Positions 1 to 9,931 of a stretch of DNA of 64,000 bases are shown piece after piece (within the stretch, counting starts at the first letter, position 1; the number at the start of each line of letters is the position of its first letter). The stretch is from Caldicellulosiruptor morganii. GTDB lineage: Bacteria; Bacillota; Thermoanaerobacteria; Caldicellulosiruptorales; Caldicellulosiruptoraceae. The translations under genes were made by a program, and so were the position numbers. The notes below the pieces were generated by a model. The model was not told the DNA's origin, ran no database searches, and saw nothing but the letters and a program-made list of their open reading frames with translations. Where the stretch lies: NCBI RefSeq assembly GCF_026810225.1, contig NZ_CP113865.1, positions 1,818,001 through 1,882,000 of the forward strand, in the 5' to 3' direction.

Positions 1-1306
1 GGTTGCGTTTTCGTATTGTTGAGATTTTTTTTGTGAAGTCGGGTATTTCACCAATGTTACAGAACTCGTCCAAGAGAAAGTATACGTGTCTGTTTCGTAT
101 ATCCTTATTATCTGTTGTGTCATGCAGCTTGACAAGCTTTATAAAAAGGAAACTGAAAAAAAGTGAGCTCATAAAGTTGTATGCCGAGTGCTGGTCTGGT
201 ATGATACAGAAATACGCTGTTTTCTGAAGCTTTGGAGCAAGCAAATCTATTTCGCTGTGCTGTGTCATGTCTCTTACAAGCCTGTTTTGAAACAGCTGAA
301 GTCTTGTCCCAAGTCCCATCACAACTCCTGATTTGACTTTTTCATTGACCTGGGAGTACAGGTTGTATGCCATTTTTGCAGCTTTGTCGTCGGGTAGATT
401 TTCAAACAGCTTTGCAATCATAGCAGGGTCTTTTGATGCAAGCAGGTCGTACACCTTTGCCATGTTCTGTTTTTCTACTGGGACGTAACAATCTTTATCC
501 TTGACATAGAGAACCAGAGCTTTGAGGAGGTTTAACTCTGCCCTGTCCCAGAACGGGTCTCCTGTTTTTCTCCCTGTCTCTGTGTTTTTTATTACGATAT
601 CTGCGAAAACCTGTGCATCTTCTTCGTTTTCAATCCCGTCAAGCGGGTTCCATGGGTCAGAAAGAGTGAAGTCAACAAGGTTGAGAGCTTTTACAAAGTA
701 GCCTTTCTTGAGAAGGTATTTGTATGTGTGTTCAAGTATTTCGCCTGACGGGTCTGTGATTACCATACTGTGTCCTGCTTCAGCCAGAGCTATTACATTT
801 GGTATTATGAACGTTCTTGATTTGCCTGCACCTGTTGCACCAAGTACCATTACATGCTTGTTGTATCTTGAGTCAAACGGCAATGTTACAAGCTCGTTTG
901 AGATTTTGCCAAGGATAAGCCCTGGCTTGTTAAAGCCCAAAACCTTTCTTGCCTCTTTTTCTGTCATCCAGTCGGATGTTCCGTATGTCCCCCTTGGGTC
1001 TTTTGGTGCCTGATTGCCGAACAGTAGTTTCATTCTTTCTTTGTATGGAAGTAACATAAGAATGCCTGCAATTAGGATAAAGGTTGTGAACCCGAGCCAT
1101 GCTTTTTTGATGTCAGGGTTTGCAAAGACGTTTTGCAGAGCCTTTACAGGGTCTGTTTGTATTTTGATTTGCGGTGCTTTTTCGGGTGAGAAGAAAAAGC
1201 TTTCCTGGTTCATTTTTAAAAGGTCTGTTAGCATTCCTATGATGTAGCCTGTGAGAAGGTAAAACAGAGCTACTGCTGTTACAAAAGCAGGGAGCTTCTT
1301 TTTCAT
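1..1306 (-). CDS. Type IV coupling protein, VirD4/TraG family (partial, runs off left edge)
   Basis: This is the ATPase that links the relaxosome to the type IV secretion channel at the inner membrane. The reading frame is open from an ATG at 1306 to the window edge (435 codons). Two N-terminal membrane segments (about residues 7-25 and 72-88) precede the Walker A motif GATGAGKS (residues 156-163); a Walker B LLDEF is near residue 409. The start ATG overlaps the stop of the upstream gene as ATGA, indicating translational coupling. The C-terminus is missing because of the window edge, not because of truncation in the genome. Family identity is secure from domain order and motifs; whether the element still transfers is unknown. 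Confidence 0.9.
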   Translation of the reverse strand, partial: MKKKLPAFVTAVALFYLLTGYIIGMLTDLLKMNQESFFFSPEKAPQIKIQTDPVKALQNVFANPDIKKAWLGFTTFILIAGILMLLPYKERMKLLFGNQAPKDPRGTYGTSDWMTEKEARKVLGFNKPGLILGKISNELVTLPFDSRYNKHVMVLGATGAGKSRTFIIPNVIALAEAGHSMVITDPSGEILEHTYKYLLKKGYFVKALNLVDFTLSDPWNPLDGIENEEDAQVFADIVIKNTETGRKTGDPFWDRAELNLLKALVLYVKDKDCYVPVEKQNMAKVYDLLASKDPAMIAKLFENLPDDKAAKMAYNLYSQVNEKVKSGVVMGLGTRLQLFQNRLVRDMTQHSEIDLLAPKLQKTAYFCIIPDQHSAYNFMSSLFFSFLFIKLVKLHDTTDNKDIRNRHVYFLLDEFCNIGEIPDFTKKISTIRKRN

Positions 1307-2501: not shown

Positions 2502-2540
2502 CAAAAAGCCTCCTTTTTTGGTTTGCTACTGCTAAACAAA

Positions 2541-2940
2541 AAGCAGTAGCTTTTTATTGCTACTGCTTGCAAAAAAGCAGCAGCTAAAAATGCTGCTGCA
2601 ATAAAGCTTTTGCCCAAGCTGACTTTATCAGCTTGGGCTTGCTACTGGTTTTATCATTGGCTTGTGGTTTGACAACAAAAGGCAGCAGCTAAAATGCTGC
2701 TGCTTATAAAAACATTGTTTCTGTAGCAGCTAAATTGCTGCTACAATGAAGCCTGAAAAAGCGCTACTTTCGCCGAAGCTGATAATGTCAGCTTCGGCTT
2801 GCTGCTGGAAATTTAATTGCTACTGGTTAACTTTGGTTCTGCCAGTTTGCAGTGGTCTACCAAGACTTGTTTGGTGCTGCTAACTCATCCTGAGGTGGTG
2901 AGTTGCTACTTTCGCACGCAAACAGAATGTGTTTGCGTGC
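2541..2940. repeat. Field of at least seven perfect or near-perfect hairpins
   Basis: Seven inverted repeats follow one another within 400 bp. Arms are 2541-2550/2559-2568 (10 bp), 2577-2584/2592-2599 (8 bp), 2612-2622/2628-2638 (11 bp), 2682-2689/2696-2703 (8 bp), 2723-2730/2737-2744 (8 bp), 2772-2782/2788-2798 (11 bp) and 2914-2923/2931-2940 (10 bp). A weaker stem lies at 2882-2904. The stem pairs at 2577+2612 and 2723+2772 are two copies of one unit. Arm GCAGCAGC changes to GTAGCAGC, and GCCCAAGCTGA to GCCGAAGCTGA, with matching changes in the opposite arms, so pairing is preserved. The field holds no coding sequence. It could be an oriT, a single-strand origin, a structured RNA or stacked terminators. 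Confidence 0.85.
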
Positions 2941-2959
2941 CTGCCATAATTTTTGTTTT

Positions 2960-3096
2960 GTATACCATTGAAGCTTAGATTTTCTCTGCTTTCCGAGCCT
3001 TGAGGGTATACTAAACCCTATACAAATTACAAATTTTTACAGGCTTTGTTTTGTATATGGTTTTGCATGCAATTTAGTATACCAATTTAGTATACA
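2960..3096. repeat. GTATAC-containing repeats, possible protein-binding sites
   Basis: The palindrome GTATAC occurs at about 2960, 3006, 3078 and 3091. The last two copies sit in a direct repeat AATTTAGTATAC (3071-3082 and 3084-3095); the 3006 copy carries the same flank in inverted orientation (GTATACTAAA). The region is A/T-rich and non-coding, between the hairpin field and the RusA-like gene. The layout fits operator or iteron-like sites for an element-encoded DNA-binding protein. No binding protein can be named from sequence alone. Confidence 0.5.
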
Positions 3097-3159
3097 AAAC
3101 AGCAGTGTTTTGCTTACAAATTTTTTTATTGCTTATACTTTTTTGCTGGAAGCAAAATT

Positions 3160-3789
3160 TTATTTTGTTCTTTTTCTGTTACTTTTTTCTTGGTAATTTG
3201 GGGGTGTTCTTGAGGCAATATCAGGGTCGGTTTGTGGTGTATACGATGTCACCTTGATTACTGTTTTTGGAAACACATTTGTTGATGTGTGCCCTTCCAG
3301 TGTGATTTTCACACGTGACATAGTATCGTTTGGTATTACTCCGCAGGTGACAAGCTGATCGATTATTGTCTTGACCATTCTGTTGTCTGTATCAGCTTTC
3401 AAAAAAGGACCTACTGGAACGTAGAATTCAAAATGAATATGAGCCTTTTCAAACCTTGGCTTTTCGGAAAGTGAATTTATGGCGTTTGTAATCAGGTCTT
3501 TCCACTTGAATGTATCCTCCTGTGTATTGACCTTATACACAGGCGGAACGTCAAAGATAAGAATTTTTAAAACTCCATCTTTGTACTCAGCTTCAAACTG
3601 GTCAATAATTAAGCTGCTATCAACATCAATCCCGTACTGTCTTATATAATCGTTATCAAACATCTTCAAGAAATTTTGCCAGTGAAAGAGGTTTTGCCTG
3701 AGCTTGAAAACCCAGTACTCTGTCTCTCTCAAATACTTTTCAGCTTCATCCAAAAGATACCTGATTTCGCCGGCCAGAGGATTGTTCAT
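3160..3789 (-). CDS. RusA-like Holliday junction resolvase family protein
   Basis: A 209-residue protein. The central block FLKADTDNRMVKTIIDQL, followed by a GVIPND turn, matches the RusA arrangement of paired acidic residues (DxDN), a following lysine and a later GVI-x-D acidic turn that form the metal site. RusA resolves four-way DNA junctions as a dimer; phages and mobile elements often carry it. The first 80 residues and the basic, disordered tail (NRKRTK) are extra compared with the roughly 120-residue classic RusA. It starts at ATG 3789 behind AGGAGGTG. A terminator separates it from the ParR-like gene upstream. Fold call is fairly good; activity is inference. Confidence 0.65.
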   Translation of the reverse strand: MNNPLAGEIRYLLDEAEKYLRETEYWVFKLRQNLFHWQNFLKMFDNDYIRQYGIDVDSSLIIDQFEAEYKDGVLKILIFDVPPVYKVNTQEDTFKWKDLITNAINSLSEKPRFEKAHIHFEFYVPVGPFLKADTDNRMVKTIIDQLVTCGVIPNDTMSRVKITLEGHTSTNVFPKTVIKVTSYTPQTDPDIASRTPPNYQEKSNRKRTK

Positions 3790-3847: not shown

Positions 3848-4093
3848 CTACAGTTTTGAAAAAGCGTCAAGAAATGATTTGACTGACTTTTTATCAAGTC
3901 CGAGTCCTGCCTGCTGCTGAGGAGGGCTGATTTCCTCCATGCTTTCAAGTTTGACTGCCCCTGACAGAACTGCTTTTGTTGCATAATATAGCTCAAGGGC
4001 GTCAAGTATAACTTGCTTTTTATCTTTTTCATCCCAGAAAGGGTGTCCTTCTGGAATCCTCACAGCGTATACGTTGTTTTTATTCTTTTTCAT
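3848..4093 (-). CDS. ParR-like small DNA-binding adaptor
   Basis: An 81-residue protein. The N-terminal stretch VYAVRIPEGHPFWD, then KKQVILDALELYYATKA, fits a ribbon-helix-helix pattern (a strand followed by an amphipathic helix). The tail is Gln/Ser-rich with an ending (SVKSFLDAFSKL) suited to contact with a filament. It lies directly downstream of a ParM-like actin gene, with an array of repeated heptamers between them, which is the gene content of a type II partition system. ATG 4093 is preferred over a GTG four codons upstream because the weak GGGTG site is better spaced. The call depends strongly on context; sequence similarity alone is thin. Confidence 0.6.
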   Translation of the reverse strand: MKKNKNNVYAVRIPEGHPFWDEKDKKQVILDALELYYATKAVLSGAVKLESMEEISPPQQQAGLGLDKKSVKSFLDAFSKL

Positions 4094-4107
4094 AACAAAA
4101 CACACCC

Positions 4108-4410
4108 TGTAAACAGGTTTTTCCCTTATTTTATCTTACTTTCACGGCAACAACAAGCTCATTTTGTAAACACAAGTGTAAACGGGTTTAGCCCTTGATT
4201 TTTCTGATTTTGCTTTGCAAATAATAGCTATTTTGTTTACAACTGACCTCAAAAATCCCCTAAAAAAGCATAGTTTTGTTTACATTTTAGGGGGTTAATG
4301 TTTTTCAAATTCAGATTTTAAGCGCATTTGAGGCGTTTACACCTGTGTTTACATTTTTGGTGTCCTGACAACTTCAAACTCAGCTGTATCAAGCTCTCAG
4401 GCTGTTTACA
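4108..4410. repeat. parC-like centromere candidate: eight TGTAAAC sites in mirror-symmetric spacing
   Basis: The heptamer TGTAAAC (or its complement GTTTACA) occurs at 4108, 4165, 4177, 4235, 4278, 4335, 4347 and 4404. The start-to-start spacings are 57, 12, 58, 43, 57, 12 and 57. The two close pairs are inverted copies: TGTAAAC-ACAAG-TGTAAAC at 4165-4183 and, on the other strand, TGTAAAC-ACAGG-TGTAAAC at 4353-4335. Near the middle, a 9-bp stem (4257-4265 with 4285-4293) forms a possible hairpin. The array fills the gap between the ParM-like and ParR-like genes and overlaps the ParM stop codon. Iterated sites next to parR are the hallmark of parC centromeres. Confidence 0.75.
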
Positions 4411-5356
4411 AACCAAGTGAAAGCAAAGCTAAATATCCTTTTGCGTTTGCAAACTGAGAGTTTTCTATTATCTGAACATTGCTAAACTCCTTTTGCAAAA
4501 CAGAGGCAACAGTAAAAGCTCCTCCGCCAGAGGCAAGCACTGCGTCAAATGTATCAAAGCCACGTTGAAGTCTTCTTGAGATGGACTGAACTATGTCGTC
4601 TGCTATAGCCCTGAAAACTTCCTTTTTGTGCGGCTCAATATCTATCTTTCTGCCACGAACAGATATATGTGAGCGCTCATGAATGTCAAAAAGCAGGCTT
4701 GTGTCGTAGCTCACACCGTATTTTCTTTCAATCATCAAACCAAGTCGTTCAACAGCCAGCGACATGCCTTTGTCCACAGTAAAACACATGTCAAGAAGCG
4801 GGTTTATGTTTTTGCTTTTGATTTCAACTACAATTACGTCTGTTGTTCTAAATCCGACATCCAGAATACAGTATATTCCATCTTCTACTGGTGAGGTGAT
4901 TGAAAAGAGTGCACCAACACCCTGAGGGAACACTTCACACCTTGCAATATGATAGCTGTGCGCAATGCCATTTTTGTCAATGATTATCTCCTCTAAAAAC
5001 TCAAAGTAGTCTTTCACCTTCTCTTTAAGTTTTGGGTAAAGCATCAGTGGAAGACCAAGTCCGAGCTCCACTTCCCTGTCGCTTTCGAGTGCCATAAGTG
5101 CTGTTAAAACAAGCAATTTTGAAAATTCGCTGAAGAATCTTTCTTCAGAAAAGCTTGTTTCTGTTATTAAGCACTGTGTTGCCGCTTCCCCGACTGCATA
5201 TGTCTGGTTCAAGTAGGTTACAAAGTAGTCACTTGTGGGTTTGAGCCCAATGTCTGTCATGAAAGTTTTGGAGACAGCAGATGGGAAAACAACCTCTTTG
5301 CCCTTTTCATTCACTGCCTTTGTGAAACCAAAACCAACGTCAATACCGCACCTCAT
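4406..5356 (-). CDS. ParM-like plasmid-segregation actin
   Basis: A 316-residue actin-fold ATPase. Phosphate-1 loop GIDVGFGFTK is at the N-terminus, phosphate-2 loop LDVGFRTTDV is near the middle, and the adenosine loop ASGGGA is near residue 285, in the expected order. ParM proteins polymerise on ATP and push apart DNA copies attached through ParR bound to parC; length matches the family (about 315-330). The start ATG has a GGGAG site about 10 nt upstream. Downstream lie the heptamer array and a ParR-like gene. A segregation filament in an ICE suggests that the excised circle replicates or is actively retained. Family call is strong. Confidence 0.88.
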   Translation of the reverse strand: MRCGIDVGFGFTKAVNEKGKEVVFPSAVSKTFMTDIGLKPTSDYFVTYLNQTYAVGEAATQCLITETSFSEERFFSEFSKLLVLTALMALESDREVELGLGLPLMLYPKLKEKVKDYFEFLEEIIIDKNGIAHSYHIARCEVFPQGVGALFSITSPVEDGIYCILDVGFRTTDVIVVEIKSKNINPLLDMCFTVDKGMSLAVERLGLMIERKYGVSYDTSLLFDIHERSHISVRGRKIDIEPHKKEVFRAIADDIVQSISRRLQRGFDTFDAVLASGGGAFTVASVLQKEFSNVQIIENSQFANAKGYLALLSLGL

Positions 5357-6848: not shown

Positions 6849-7703
6849 TCAAATAGTAATTCTTTTTATTCTGTTTTCGTGCTTTTTACGCCAGCAGCCA
6901 GTTCTATACAGTGTTTTAACCTCAAGGTCACATAATGGAACAAAAAAGATATTTGAGACCTTTTTTGTAGGTTTCACAGAAAATAGCCATATCCTTGTTT
7001 TCTTGTGATTTGGTTCAATCACAACCTCAGCCTCTATTTCTTTTATAACCTTGCCTTTGCCAAACAATCTTTTTTCTTCTCTGACGTGGGTTTCTACCTT
7101 TGCTTTAACACCATCTATTAACTCAGTCCATTTGCCTTCTGTGTCAAATCCCCAGTGTAGAGGCAACGGCAAAAATGGGTCAATATACATGTATTTTTCT
7201 TTTATCTTCCCAAGCCACAAAAGGGCTATTTCACCTTCAAAGCTGTATCTTGAAAAGTCCGTTTCCAATTTGAAGCTGAATTTGTAGCTGCCCGGCTCTC
7301 CTGAGCCCGGCAAACGACTGTATATGTCCTCTTTCAGCTGATACACCTGGGCTCTAATTTTCTCTATCCCCAATCTTTTGGCAAGACAGACTCTGTGCTT
7401 TCCCTCTACAACCCAGAACTTGCCTTTGTACTCGGCTAATTTAATTCTGTCCTGTTCGTAAAATGGTGTTTTACCTTCTATAAACTGTTCAAAAAAGCCT
7501 CTGCACCTGCTATATTGAAGACAAATCTCCAAATAGTTTGGGTCTGCTGCTGTGGTTTCTAAAGCCTCAAGTATTTCTTCTTCGGTATTGTAGTATGCAT
7601 TCAAACCAAGTTTTGATAAAAGCAAGCACCTTGAACCAAGCTCTGTCGGAAATTCCTGAATGTCGCTTACATTTATTATCTTTTCGGTATACTCACTTTT
7701 CAT
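6849..7703 (-). CDS. ParB/sulfiredoxin-fold protein, paralog 2
   Basis: A 284-residue protein. Residues 10-20 (NVSDIQEFPTELG) and the GKHRVCLAKRLGIEKIRAQVY block around residue 105 form the ParB N-terminal fold, with the diagnostic G-x-HR-xx-AK motif. The remaining 150 residues are a beta-rich domain of unknown type shared with its neighbour. A GTG at 7742 would add 13 residues, but ATG 7703 has an AGGAG site 9 nt upstream and aligns with the start of the paralog, so it is chosen. It follows paralog 1 by 28 nt. No HTH domain is present, so this is not a classical centromere-binding ParB. Function unknown. Confidence 0.75.
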   Translation of the reverse strand: MKSEYTEKIINVSDIQEFPTELGSRCLLLSKLGLNAYYNTEEEILEALETTAADPNYLEICLQYSRCRGFFEQFIEGKTPFYEQDRIKLAEYKGKFWVVEGKHRVCLAKRLGIEKIRAQVYQLKEDIYSRLPGSGEPGSYKFSFKLETDFSRYSFEGEIALLWLGKIKEKYMYIDPFLPLPLHWGFDTEGKWTELIDGVKAKVETHVREEKRLFGKGKVIKEIEAEVVIEPNHKKTRIWLFSVKPTKKVSNIFFVPLCDLEVKTLYRTGCWRKKHENRIKRITI

Positions 7704-7731
7704 TTTGTCCAACTCCTCGCTCTCCTTTTTA

Positions 7732-8583
7732 TTAGATTTCACAAATACACCTTTCTTCTAAAACCATTTCGTGTTGTTTGCGCCACAAACCTGTTCTGAA
7801 AAGAGTTGTAAAAACAGGCTTCTGGGAACAAAACTGTGTCGTGCAAAAGTGTACAGAAAGGAGCCAGATCCTTGTTTTTTTATGATTCTCTTCAATTGCT
7901 ACCTCTGATTCTATTTCAATAGTCTTTGAAGGTTTAGAGAACAGCCTTTTTGTTTTCTTTATGTTAACACTTACTTTGACTTTTACCCCTTCAACAAGCT
8001 CAACAAATTTCCCATCTGTGTCGTGTTTGCTATTCAGCAAAAAAGGCTGGGCAGTATCAATAGCCCAGAAATAGTTGGTGACTGTTTTGAGCCACTGTGC
8101 ACCAAGTTCACCTCTGTGCTCTCGTCTCCCCGCCTCATCAATTTTGCATTTGTAACTAAATCTGAAAACTCCGGGATTGCCAATGTCCGGTATGCGACTT
8201 AACGTGTCTTCTCTTAATTGATATACAACTGCTTTTATCTTTTCAAAACCCGCTCTTTTGGCAAGACAGACTCTGTGCTTCCCTTCTATGACCCAGAACT
8301 TGCCATTGTATTCTCTGACTACAATCGGGTCCTGGTCAAAGAAAGGCGTCTCGTTTTTAAGAAACTTTTCGTAAAAGCCTTTGCACCTGCTCAACTTGAG
8401 GCAAATATCCAGATATTTAGGGTCTTTCGCAGTCATCTCCAAGACCTCTAAAAGTTCTTCATCAGTGTTCCTGTACGGGTCAAGACCAAACTGTGATAAT
8501 AGAAGACACTTTGAACCAAGCCATGTTGGAAATTCTTGAATGTCTGAGACATTTATTATCTTTTCAGTCTTTTCATAACTCAT
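7732..8583 (-). CDS. ParB/sulfiredoxin-fold protein, paralog 1
   Basis: A 283-residue protein closely related to the next gene downstream. Both share the start region (KIINVSDIQEFPT), the EGKHRVCLAKR motif, a middle beta-rich domain and an ending FRTGLWRKQHE (RTGCWRKKHE in the paralog). Tandem duplication with clear divergence suggests two partners or specialised copies rather than a recent error. ATG 8583 has a GGGAG site 9 nt upstream. The ParB fold hosts CTPases, nucleases and free-serine kinases; which applies cannot be told from the visible motifs. Confidence 0.75.
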   Translation of the reverse strand: MSYEKTEKIINVSDIQEFPTWLGSKCLLLSQFGLDPYRNTDEELLEVLEMTAKDPKYLDICLKLSRCKGFYEKFLKNETPFFDQDPIVVREYNGKFWVIEGKHRVCLAKRAGFEKIKAVVYQLREDTLSRIPDIGNPGVFRFSYKCKIDEAGRREHRGELGAQWLKTVTNYFWAIDTAQPFLLNSKHDTDGKFVELVEGVKVKVSVNIKKTKRLFSKPSKTIEIESEVAIEENHKKTRIWLLSVHFCTTQFCSQKPVFTTLFRTGLWRKQHEMVLEERCICEI

Positions 8584-8977: not shown

Positions 8978-9931
8978 CTATTTGCCAAGTTTGCTGCGAA
9001 GCTCCCTTATCCTTTCCATGTCAAGTCCTGTGACTCTGGCAATAAAGCTATCCTCTGCTCCTTCCTCTATCATCTTCTGGGCTACCTCCAGCAGTGCTTG
9101 TTCTTTGCCCTGTTGAATACCTTGTTGAATACCTTGTTGAATGCCCTGTTTTCTTTCTTTTTCTAACTCCTTCTCCAAGCCCTTTCTTATCTTCTCAGCT
9201 GTGTTGAGAAACATCTCATTCACCCCCAATCTCAGAAAGTCAGACCTGAACAAAAACTCGTCCACTTCTTCGTCTGAAAATCCGTATCCTTTTAATACCA
9301 CGTGGTATAACCACTCGCAAAACTCTTCCTTTTGCTCCTCTGAAAATCTTACATGCTTACTCAAATATTCAAGCCGCTCTGCCACCTTCTCTGGATTGCT
9401 TGATACCTTATCCACATACAAAGCTGCTGCTATCAGATTTGCACCCTTCAAAAGTTTCTCATCGTCTATCATACGCTCATCCACAAACACCAGGCTGAAC
9501 TTTGGAACATACTGTTTAAAATCCTCTCCATAAATCACGTTCTGTTCAAAGCTTGTTGCTGGTGTCCATTCCTGGTCACCTGTATACAGCACTACAGGTA
9601 TCACTACTGGCAGAAGGTTTTTTGCCATGTACTTCTTCTGGATTAGCAGCATGTATTCTAATATCCTCAGGTGTATGAGCTCATCTTTCGTGCTTTGAAA
9701 CTCTAACAGCAAACATATATATGCGTCCTTGTATTTTATTCTGTACACCATGTCTGACCTGCGTGCTCTCCACTGCCTGTTGATAGACTCTGTGGCTATG
9801 ACTTCTATGTCCTCAACTCCAATTTGAAATGGTACAACCTCAAAAATTTCTGTCAAAAGCCACTTGATGTTTGCACTGTTTGTCAGCACTCTTTTGAAAC
9901 CTTCATCAACAAGCCGCCTTTTTCTACTCAT
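8978..9931 (-). CDS. Rpn-family recombination-promoting nuclease
   Basis: A 317-residue protein of the Rpn / transposase_31 family (PD-(D/E)XK nucleases). The N-terminal nuclease core holds the RRSDMVYRIKY and CLLLEFQST blocks that supply the acidic and E-x-Q residues, followed by a helical middle. The C-terminal region contains GIQQ repeated three times (about residues 265-277), encoded by a short tandem DNA repeat near 9111-9144, and ends in a small helical motif. Family members promote RecA-independent recombination and spread between genomes; some have defence-linked roles. ATG 9931 has GGGGGAG upstream. It is flanked by a terminator, so it is a single-gene cassette. Confidence 0.85.
   Translation of the reverse strand: MSRKRRLVDEGFKRVLTNSANIKWLLTEIFEVVPFQIGVEDIEVIATESINRQWRARRSDMVYRIKYKDAYICLLLEFQSTKDELIHLRILEYMLLIQKKYMAKNLLPVVIPVVLYTGDQEWTPATSFEQNVIYGEDFKQYVPKFSLVFVDERMIDDEKLLKGANLIAAALYVDKVSSNPEKVAERLEYLSKHVRFSEEQKEEFCEWLYHVVLKGYGFSDEEVDEFLFRSDFLRLGVNEMFLNTAEKIRKGLEKELEKERKQGIQQGIQQGIQQGKEQALLEVAQKMIEEGAEDSFIARVTGLDMERIRELRSKLGK

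Follow-up and report, generated by a model that had tools for sequence, protein, structure and literature searches.

A hairpin-rich non-coding field in a Caldicellulosiruptor conjugative element as a candidate oriT-type site

The clt locus of Streptomyces plasmids contains 8-bp repeats that are bound by TraB. REP/RAYT palindromes carry a GTAG tetranucleotide beside a hairpin, and are characterized by many dispersed copies and a RAYT gene. For transfer systems of the MOBC type, PF13814 (Replic_Relax) has been classed as the MobC relaxase in streptococcal elements (PMC5357655). The MOBC enzymes are nucleases of the PD-(D/E)XK type, and TraX of pAD1 binds five direct repeats located 70-120 bp from nic (PMC12857230).

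Here we describe a hairpin-rich non-coding field in a stretch of 64,000 nt of Caldicellulosiruptor morganii DNA, called the window below. Judged from its sequence and that of its relatives, the field would most likely be the site from which a conjugative element of thermophilic bacteria starts to move into another cell. This would narrow the probable start of DNA transfer to a few hundred bases in a group of conjugative elements of thermophiles and of Brevibacillus; current software assigns related plasmids to the non-mobilisable type. Since none of the usual relaxases was detected, the locus turns the question of what nicks the DNA into a sharp and testable one. Nature has already exchanged the site along with the putative recognition domain, so that specificity swaps are at hand, and a functional oriT would help to move DNA between cellulose-degrading thermophiles.

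Hairpins in the non-coding field

The field lies between the gene of a RusA-like Holliday-junction resolvase and the genes of RR (a winged-helix protein resembling 'replication-relaxation' proteins) and VirD4 (Table 1). This 655-bp intergenic region was scanned exhaustively for perfect stems (8 bp or more, loop of 3-10 nt). Exactly seven were found, all of them inside 2541-2940, while dinucleotide shuffles of the region had on average 0.26 such stems and a maximum of two in 100 shuffles. This confirmed the seven perfect stems in non-coding DNA which the first-pass annotation had reported. The stretch also folds far better than its shuffles, both as RNA (z -9.2) and as DNA (z -11.6). In addition, a unit present twice had been described (2577-2638 and 2723-2798), in which base changes in one arm are matched in the other. 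Both compensated pairs are indeed there: the paired arms are GCAGCAGC/GCTGCTGC in one copy and GTAGCAGC/GCTGCTAC in the other, and the second stem is GCCCAAG/CTTGGGC versus GCCGAAG/CTTCGGC. By themselves the two copies offer only these two compensated pairs, and the comparison between relatives presented below is the stronger evidence.

The seven stems were originally treated as one thing. We divide them into two classes, since the hairpin types differ in their spread among relatives. Three stems (Ha, Hb and Hc in Table 1) are of a conserved kind, typically followed on the minus strand by an AAGTAG-type tail. The remaining four are lineage-specific GCAGYAGC-type hairpins, which were found in close relatives only and three of which are terminator-like on the minus strand in the window. 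Read on the minus strand, which is the strand of the genes, the field is built of four layers, namely iteron-like boxes, a covarying hairpin, a polar CCAGTAG array and extra hairpins, some of them terminator-like, which occur mainly in close relatives.

A scan of the window with Rfam at the gathering threshold gave no match, and no promoter-like site was found on the minus strand within the field, although read-through transcription is possible. A structured RNA, one of the earlier proposals for this region, is therefore not favoured. The genome, a single contig of 2.48 Mb, contains no further full copy of the field and no dispersed copies, and blastn of the field against plasmids gave no match. 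At 2525-2568, the sequences GCAGTAGC and GCTACTGC alternate in three copies (GCAGTAGC/GCTACTGC/GCAGTAGC), which directly precede the ribosome-binding site of the 74-aa ORF and could form mutually exclusive hairpins.

Table 1. Features of the field and of the neighbouring genes (window coordinates).
Feature	Position	Strand	Basis or remark
Whole non-coding field, candidate oriT region	2505-3159	minus	Between RusA-like gene and 74-aa ORF/RR
Box A, GTATAC-type iteron-like boxes beside rusA	2950-3159	minus	Repeats; co-variation with RR winged helix
Hairpin Ha, 11-bp stem, 5-nt loop	2914-2940	minus	Counterpart in 9/9 elements
Tail GAAAGTAGC directly 3' of Ha	2905-2913	minus	AAGTAG in 7/9 elements
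Paired direct repeat CCAGTAGC-AATTAAATTT-CCAGCAGC	2801-2826	minus	Similar spaced pair in most Caldicellulosiruptor elements
Hairpin Hb, CCAGCAGCAA before, GAAAGTAGC after	2772-2798	minus	Stem scan
GTAGCAGC-type hairpin, lineage-specific	2722-2745	minus	Stem scan
GCAGCAGC-type hairpin, terminator-like on minus strand	2682-2703	minus	Stem and terminator scan
CCAGTAG repeat ahead of Hc	2642-2648	minus	Repeat count
Hairpin Hc; AAGTAG tail lost in window, kept in G008a and G004	2612-2638	minus	
GCAGCAGC-type hairpin and T run, terminator-like on minus strand	2577-2599	minus	
GCAGTAGC-type hairpin and T-rich tail, terminator-like on minus strand	2541-2568	minus	
RusA-like Holliday-junction resolvase gene	3160-3789	minus	PHROG matches 1e-5; DxDN...D invariant in nine aligned
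RR, winged-helix 'replication-relaxation'-like protein	1303-2250	minus	Alignment; profile match to PF13814-hitting protein
VirD4 coupling protein gene, continues left of window	1-1306	minus	L053 16414-18306, PF02534 3.6e-70
ParR-like small protein, without family match	3848-4105	minus	Inferred from place beside ParM-like gene
ParM-like actin	4406-5356	minus	PF17989 2.9e-30
74-aa ORF between field and RR	2280-2504	minus	Similar ORFs in four close elements

Conservation in related elements

On the minus strand the order is ParM-like actin, ParR-like protein, RusA-like protein, field, 74-aa ORF, RR, VirD4 and an S1-domain protein. A VirB4-like ATPase, a T2SSE-type ATPase and a tyrosine recombinase are also encoded, which fits a conjugative element. 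Eight further elements in Caldicellulosiruptor-type genomes share the region and the order ParM/ParR-like/RusA-like/field/RR/VirD4/S1. The resulting set of nine chromosomal elements consists of four close ones (the window, two in genome G008, here G008a and G008b, and one in G004) and five distant ones (G012, G006, G007, G001 and G010), which were found by DNA and protein searches; in all nine the field is located between the RusA-like and RR genes. A similar gene order exists in Thermoanaerobacter-type genomes, in some of them with VirD4 beside RR, and in genome G281. Two Brevibacillus plasmids encode ParM, VirD4, an S1 protein and a replication-relaxation protein, together with a protein that can be aligned to the RusA-like family.

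Some other genes of these elements should be mentioned. T2SSE-type ATPase and T2SSF-like genes are present in the element (L054, 15710-18275), and a T2SS/T4P-type ATPase and an A24 peptidase are encoded near ParM in Brevibacillus (L085, 656-5257); these genes suggest pilus-like parts in the conjugation apparatus. The window further contains two tandem similar genes at 6849-8583, the second with a weak match to a ParB N-terminal domain, and a gene matching PF04754 (YhgA-like putative transposase) at 8978-9931. An IS110-family transposase is located within the element at L053 12047-13291.

The comparison between the nine elements revealed that Ha has a counterpart, a perfect stem of 9-12 bp, in every one of them. 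At every one of its first nine pairs, two or three Watson-Crick types are seen among the elements and G-T pairs are not, the latter being partly built in because the scan required perfect stems. The tail is exactly AAGTAG in seven elements, CAGTAG in one and a variant in one. The earlier suggestion that pairing is under selection is borne out by these data, and pairing was kept among the relatives rather than randomly lost. Thus, the hairpin cluster is real and is kept by matched base changes in relatives. The four close elements contain two more hairpins, Hb and Hc, most of them with AAGTAG-type tails, in addition to the GCAGYAGC-type hairpins, and analogues of Hb and Hc were also found in G012 and G010. 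Strong imperfect hairpins are present at the same place in genomes G024 and G036 and in the Brevibacillus plasmids.

The word CCAGTAG is strictly polar in the field, with 21 copies on the minus (gene) strand and none on the other in the eight elements tested, all eight of which have it, including the Caldicellulosiruptor plasmid pCALKR01 (0.03-0.17 copies expected per element). In the corresponding intergenic regions of Thermoanaerobacter-type loci (L056-L059), CCAGTAG is replaced by AAGGCAG, which is also polar (15 to 1). Ha, its tail and the polar repeat keep their place even where the other sequence of the field is not alignable, and in most pairs compared the field has diverged more rapidly than the sequences flanking it. 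The extra hairpins vary in number and order among relatives, and terminator-like stems are missing from the distant elements. Two further candidates were rejected or gave little: as a polar motif of the whole ICE, CCAGTAG is only moderately polar (rank 63 of 14276 7-mers), and the pattern of the paired direct repeat yielded 19 scattered matches in unrelated taxa among approximately 85,000 genomes, which we take as chance, and two in viral contigs.

RR and the co-variation of its winged helix with box A

RR gave no informative Pfam match, and PF13814 was not reached. The profile of the RR family matches, remotely, a Brevibacillus protein which in turn matches PF13814; it did not match a second Brevibacillus protein or the MOBC protein of pAM373. 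In a remote alignment, the acidic pattern ADF...FEIEL of pAM373 MOBC corresponds to NKILG...YGIYRIS in the RR family, and RR thus appears to be devoid of the PD-(D/E)XK acidic nuclease motif of MOBC. The AlphaFold model of RR alone (pLDDT 42) was too poor to decide on the motif, and sequence searches of the PDB gave no usable match. Relatives of RR were not found in IMG/VR and phages, nor in a profile search with RR alignments against genome contigs, a set from which near relatives were possibly excluded. Other relaxase families were searched for in eight genomes and three plasmids: PF03432, PF03389 and PF02486 were absent with positive controls, and PF01076 was absent in a search run without a positive control. 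The RusA-like neighbour has the active-site residues DxDN...D in all nine members aligned. The nicking enzyme may therefore be sought in RR, in the RusA-like nuclease or in another protein of the element. In the literature covered, nothing was found on a combination of RusA, ParM and relaxase or on clt repeats.

The winged helix of RR is the part of the protein which we propose to bind box A. In G006 and G007 (the L048/L049 pair), the flanks are 98-100% identical over most of their length, and the field has been exchanged as one block with the 3' end of rusA and with approximately 110 initial codons of RR; identity in this block is 22-52% in the field and mostly 47-80% in the winged-helix codons. 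Linkage alone could make neighbouring segments move jointly, which gives weight to a second case. It is provided by the window and G008a, which have a backbone identity of about 95% and two dips, one in box A (65-72%) and one in RR codons ~13-53 (70-80%). Between the two dips, most of the sequence is well conserved, apart from a single indel-rich dip. At the amino acid level, the winged helices of the window and G004 form one group and those of G008a and G008b another, whereas in the rest of RR the window groups with G008a, and G004 with G008b. In the variable segment of box A, the pair G008a/G008b (0.69) supports the winged-helix grouping, and so does, weakly, the pair window/G004 (0.62 versus 0.57-0.58, with G004/G008b also at 0.64). 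In partial Mantel tests over the nine elements, r was 0.52 for box A (p 0.003) and 0.34 for the array (p 0.04). Together these data support co-inheritance of the boxes with the winged helix, and they are support rather than proof because the elements are few and related.

Proposed function and comparison with known systems

We consider it probable that the field is a cis-acting, oriT-type relaxosome site, laid out like a MOBC system and read on the minus strand. The winged helix of RR would bind the iteron-like boxes beside rusA, as their co-variation suggests, and RR on the boxes would place the relaxosome on the adjacent hairpin Ha. The strand would then be broken at or near the conserved AAGTAG tail, and in the window we propose the tail GAAAGTAGC of Ha as the putative nick region. 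Further binding or loading sites may be provided by the polar CCAGTAG array and by the additional hairpins that resemble Ha, and these sites would fix the direction of the hand-over of the strand to VirD4. The oriT-type reading is the best one because it accounts for the location of the field, for boxes which vary along with RR, for a hairpin whose tail stays constant and for the strand polarity. It is supported by the place of the field, kept between the RusA-like and RR genes with VirD4 next in nine elements, by the similar gene order of Thermoanaerobacter-type genomes and Brevibacillus plasmids, by the covarying Ha with its AAGTAG-type tail and the polar CCAGTAG array, by the co-variation of the boxes with the winged helix (the G006/G007 exchange, the window/G008a dips and the Mantel tests), and by the precedent of PF13814 as a MobC relaxase class and of TraX binding repeats distant from nic. 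It also agrees with the first-pass annotation, which expected an oriT or a replication origin here beside the relaxosome and coupling-protein genes. Against it count that RR does not itself match PF13814 and seems to be devoid of the acidic nuclease motif, that VirD4 does not directly follow RR in G016 and G020, that pCALKR01 has kept RusA, the field and RR with VirD4 apparently a fragment, and that the polar word differs between bacterial families. It is also conceivable, but improbable in our opinion, that the relaxosome is non-canonical, with RR responsible for DNA recognition only and the adjacent, conserved and structure-specific nuclease of the RusA type cutting the extruded hairpins of the field. 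In that case transfer would start from a resolvase acting on hairpin DNA and not from an HUH, Rep_trans or PD-(D/E)XK relaxase.

Other functions for the same sequence features have to be considered. Given the nearby ParM and ParR-like genes and the RusA-field-RR block kept on pCALKR01, a non-conjugative plasmid, the field could be a replication origin or a centromere, with box A as iterons of RR acting as Rep or as ParR sites and the hairpins as structures for unwinding or single-strand initiation. We regard this as unlikely, since pCALKR01 and the element each carry another initiator-like protein with a shared C-terminal region (E 1e-11), the one on pCALKR01 with HTH_36, and since the site is located past rusA and not at the parM end, and VirD4 comes after RR in most elements. 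A clear origin signal was not seen in the GC skew of pCALKR01. Selection could also act on a structured leader RNA at the 5' end of the RR-VirD4 operon, in which terminators and alternative pairings would cause attenuation; the three terminator-like hairpins on the minus strand, the alternative GCAGTAGC/GCTACTGC copies just ahead of the 74-aa ORF and the favourable RNA fold would be in line with this. However, the missing Rfam match and minus-strand promoter-like site, conserved stems free of G-T pairs, distant elements without terminator-like stems and a box A which co-varies with a DNA-binding domain make such a leader quite unlikely.

Box A could, finally, be nothing but the operator through which RR represses the operon it belongs to, and the hairpins terminators and drifting palindromes with no role in transfer. 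Repressor-operator pairs co-vary too, box A contains TATACT-like words, and the extra hairpins differ in number and order among relatives. Ha, its tail and the polar repeat stay in place, however, where the rest of the field is not alignable, and dispersed copies of the field are absent from its genome; a mere operator is thus very unlikely in our view.

Comparing the field with the systems mentioned at the beginning, REP/RAYT palindromes resemble it by the GTAG tetranucleotide beside a hairpin. In the field, however, GTAG is mainly located 3' of the hairpin, and REP-type palindromes were set aside because dispersed genomic copies are absent. ParMRC centromeres also have iterons near parM/parR-like genes, but the site described here is downstream, past rusA, and co-varies with RR. 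The clt locus, like the field, has short, direct and polar repeats within non-coding DNA that is required in cis; here, in contrast, there are a VirD4-type motor, a full T4SS and hairpins, and no FtsK-like TraB. Compared to the MOBC oriT (oriT2/TraX of pAD1; pAM373), RR is far from PF13814 and apparently without the PD-(D/E)XK acidic motif, and the adjoining RusA-like gene, the several hairpins with AAGTAG tails and the polar CCAGTAG array are particular to the field. Alike are the replication-relaxation-type gene beside a VirD4-type gene, both of which follow the field, and the repeats as proposed protein-binding site away from the proposed nick region. The first-pass annotation knew no named origin of this pattern; this holds with respect to the MOBC nuclease motif, which was not found in RR, and has to be revised with respect to the layout, which resembles the MOBC oriT. 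Since the search for the catalytic motif was negative, we do not claim membership in MOBC, but by analogy the field may still work like a MOBC oriT.
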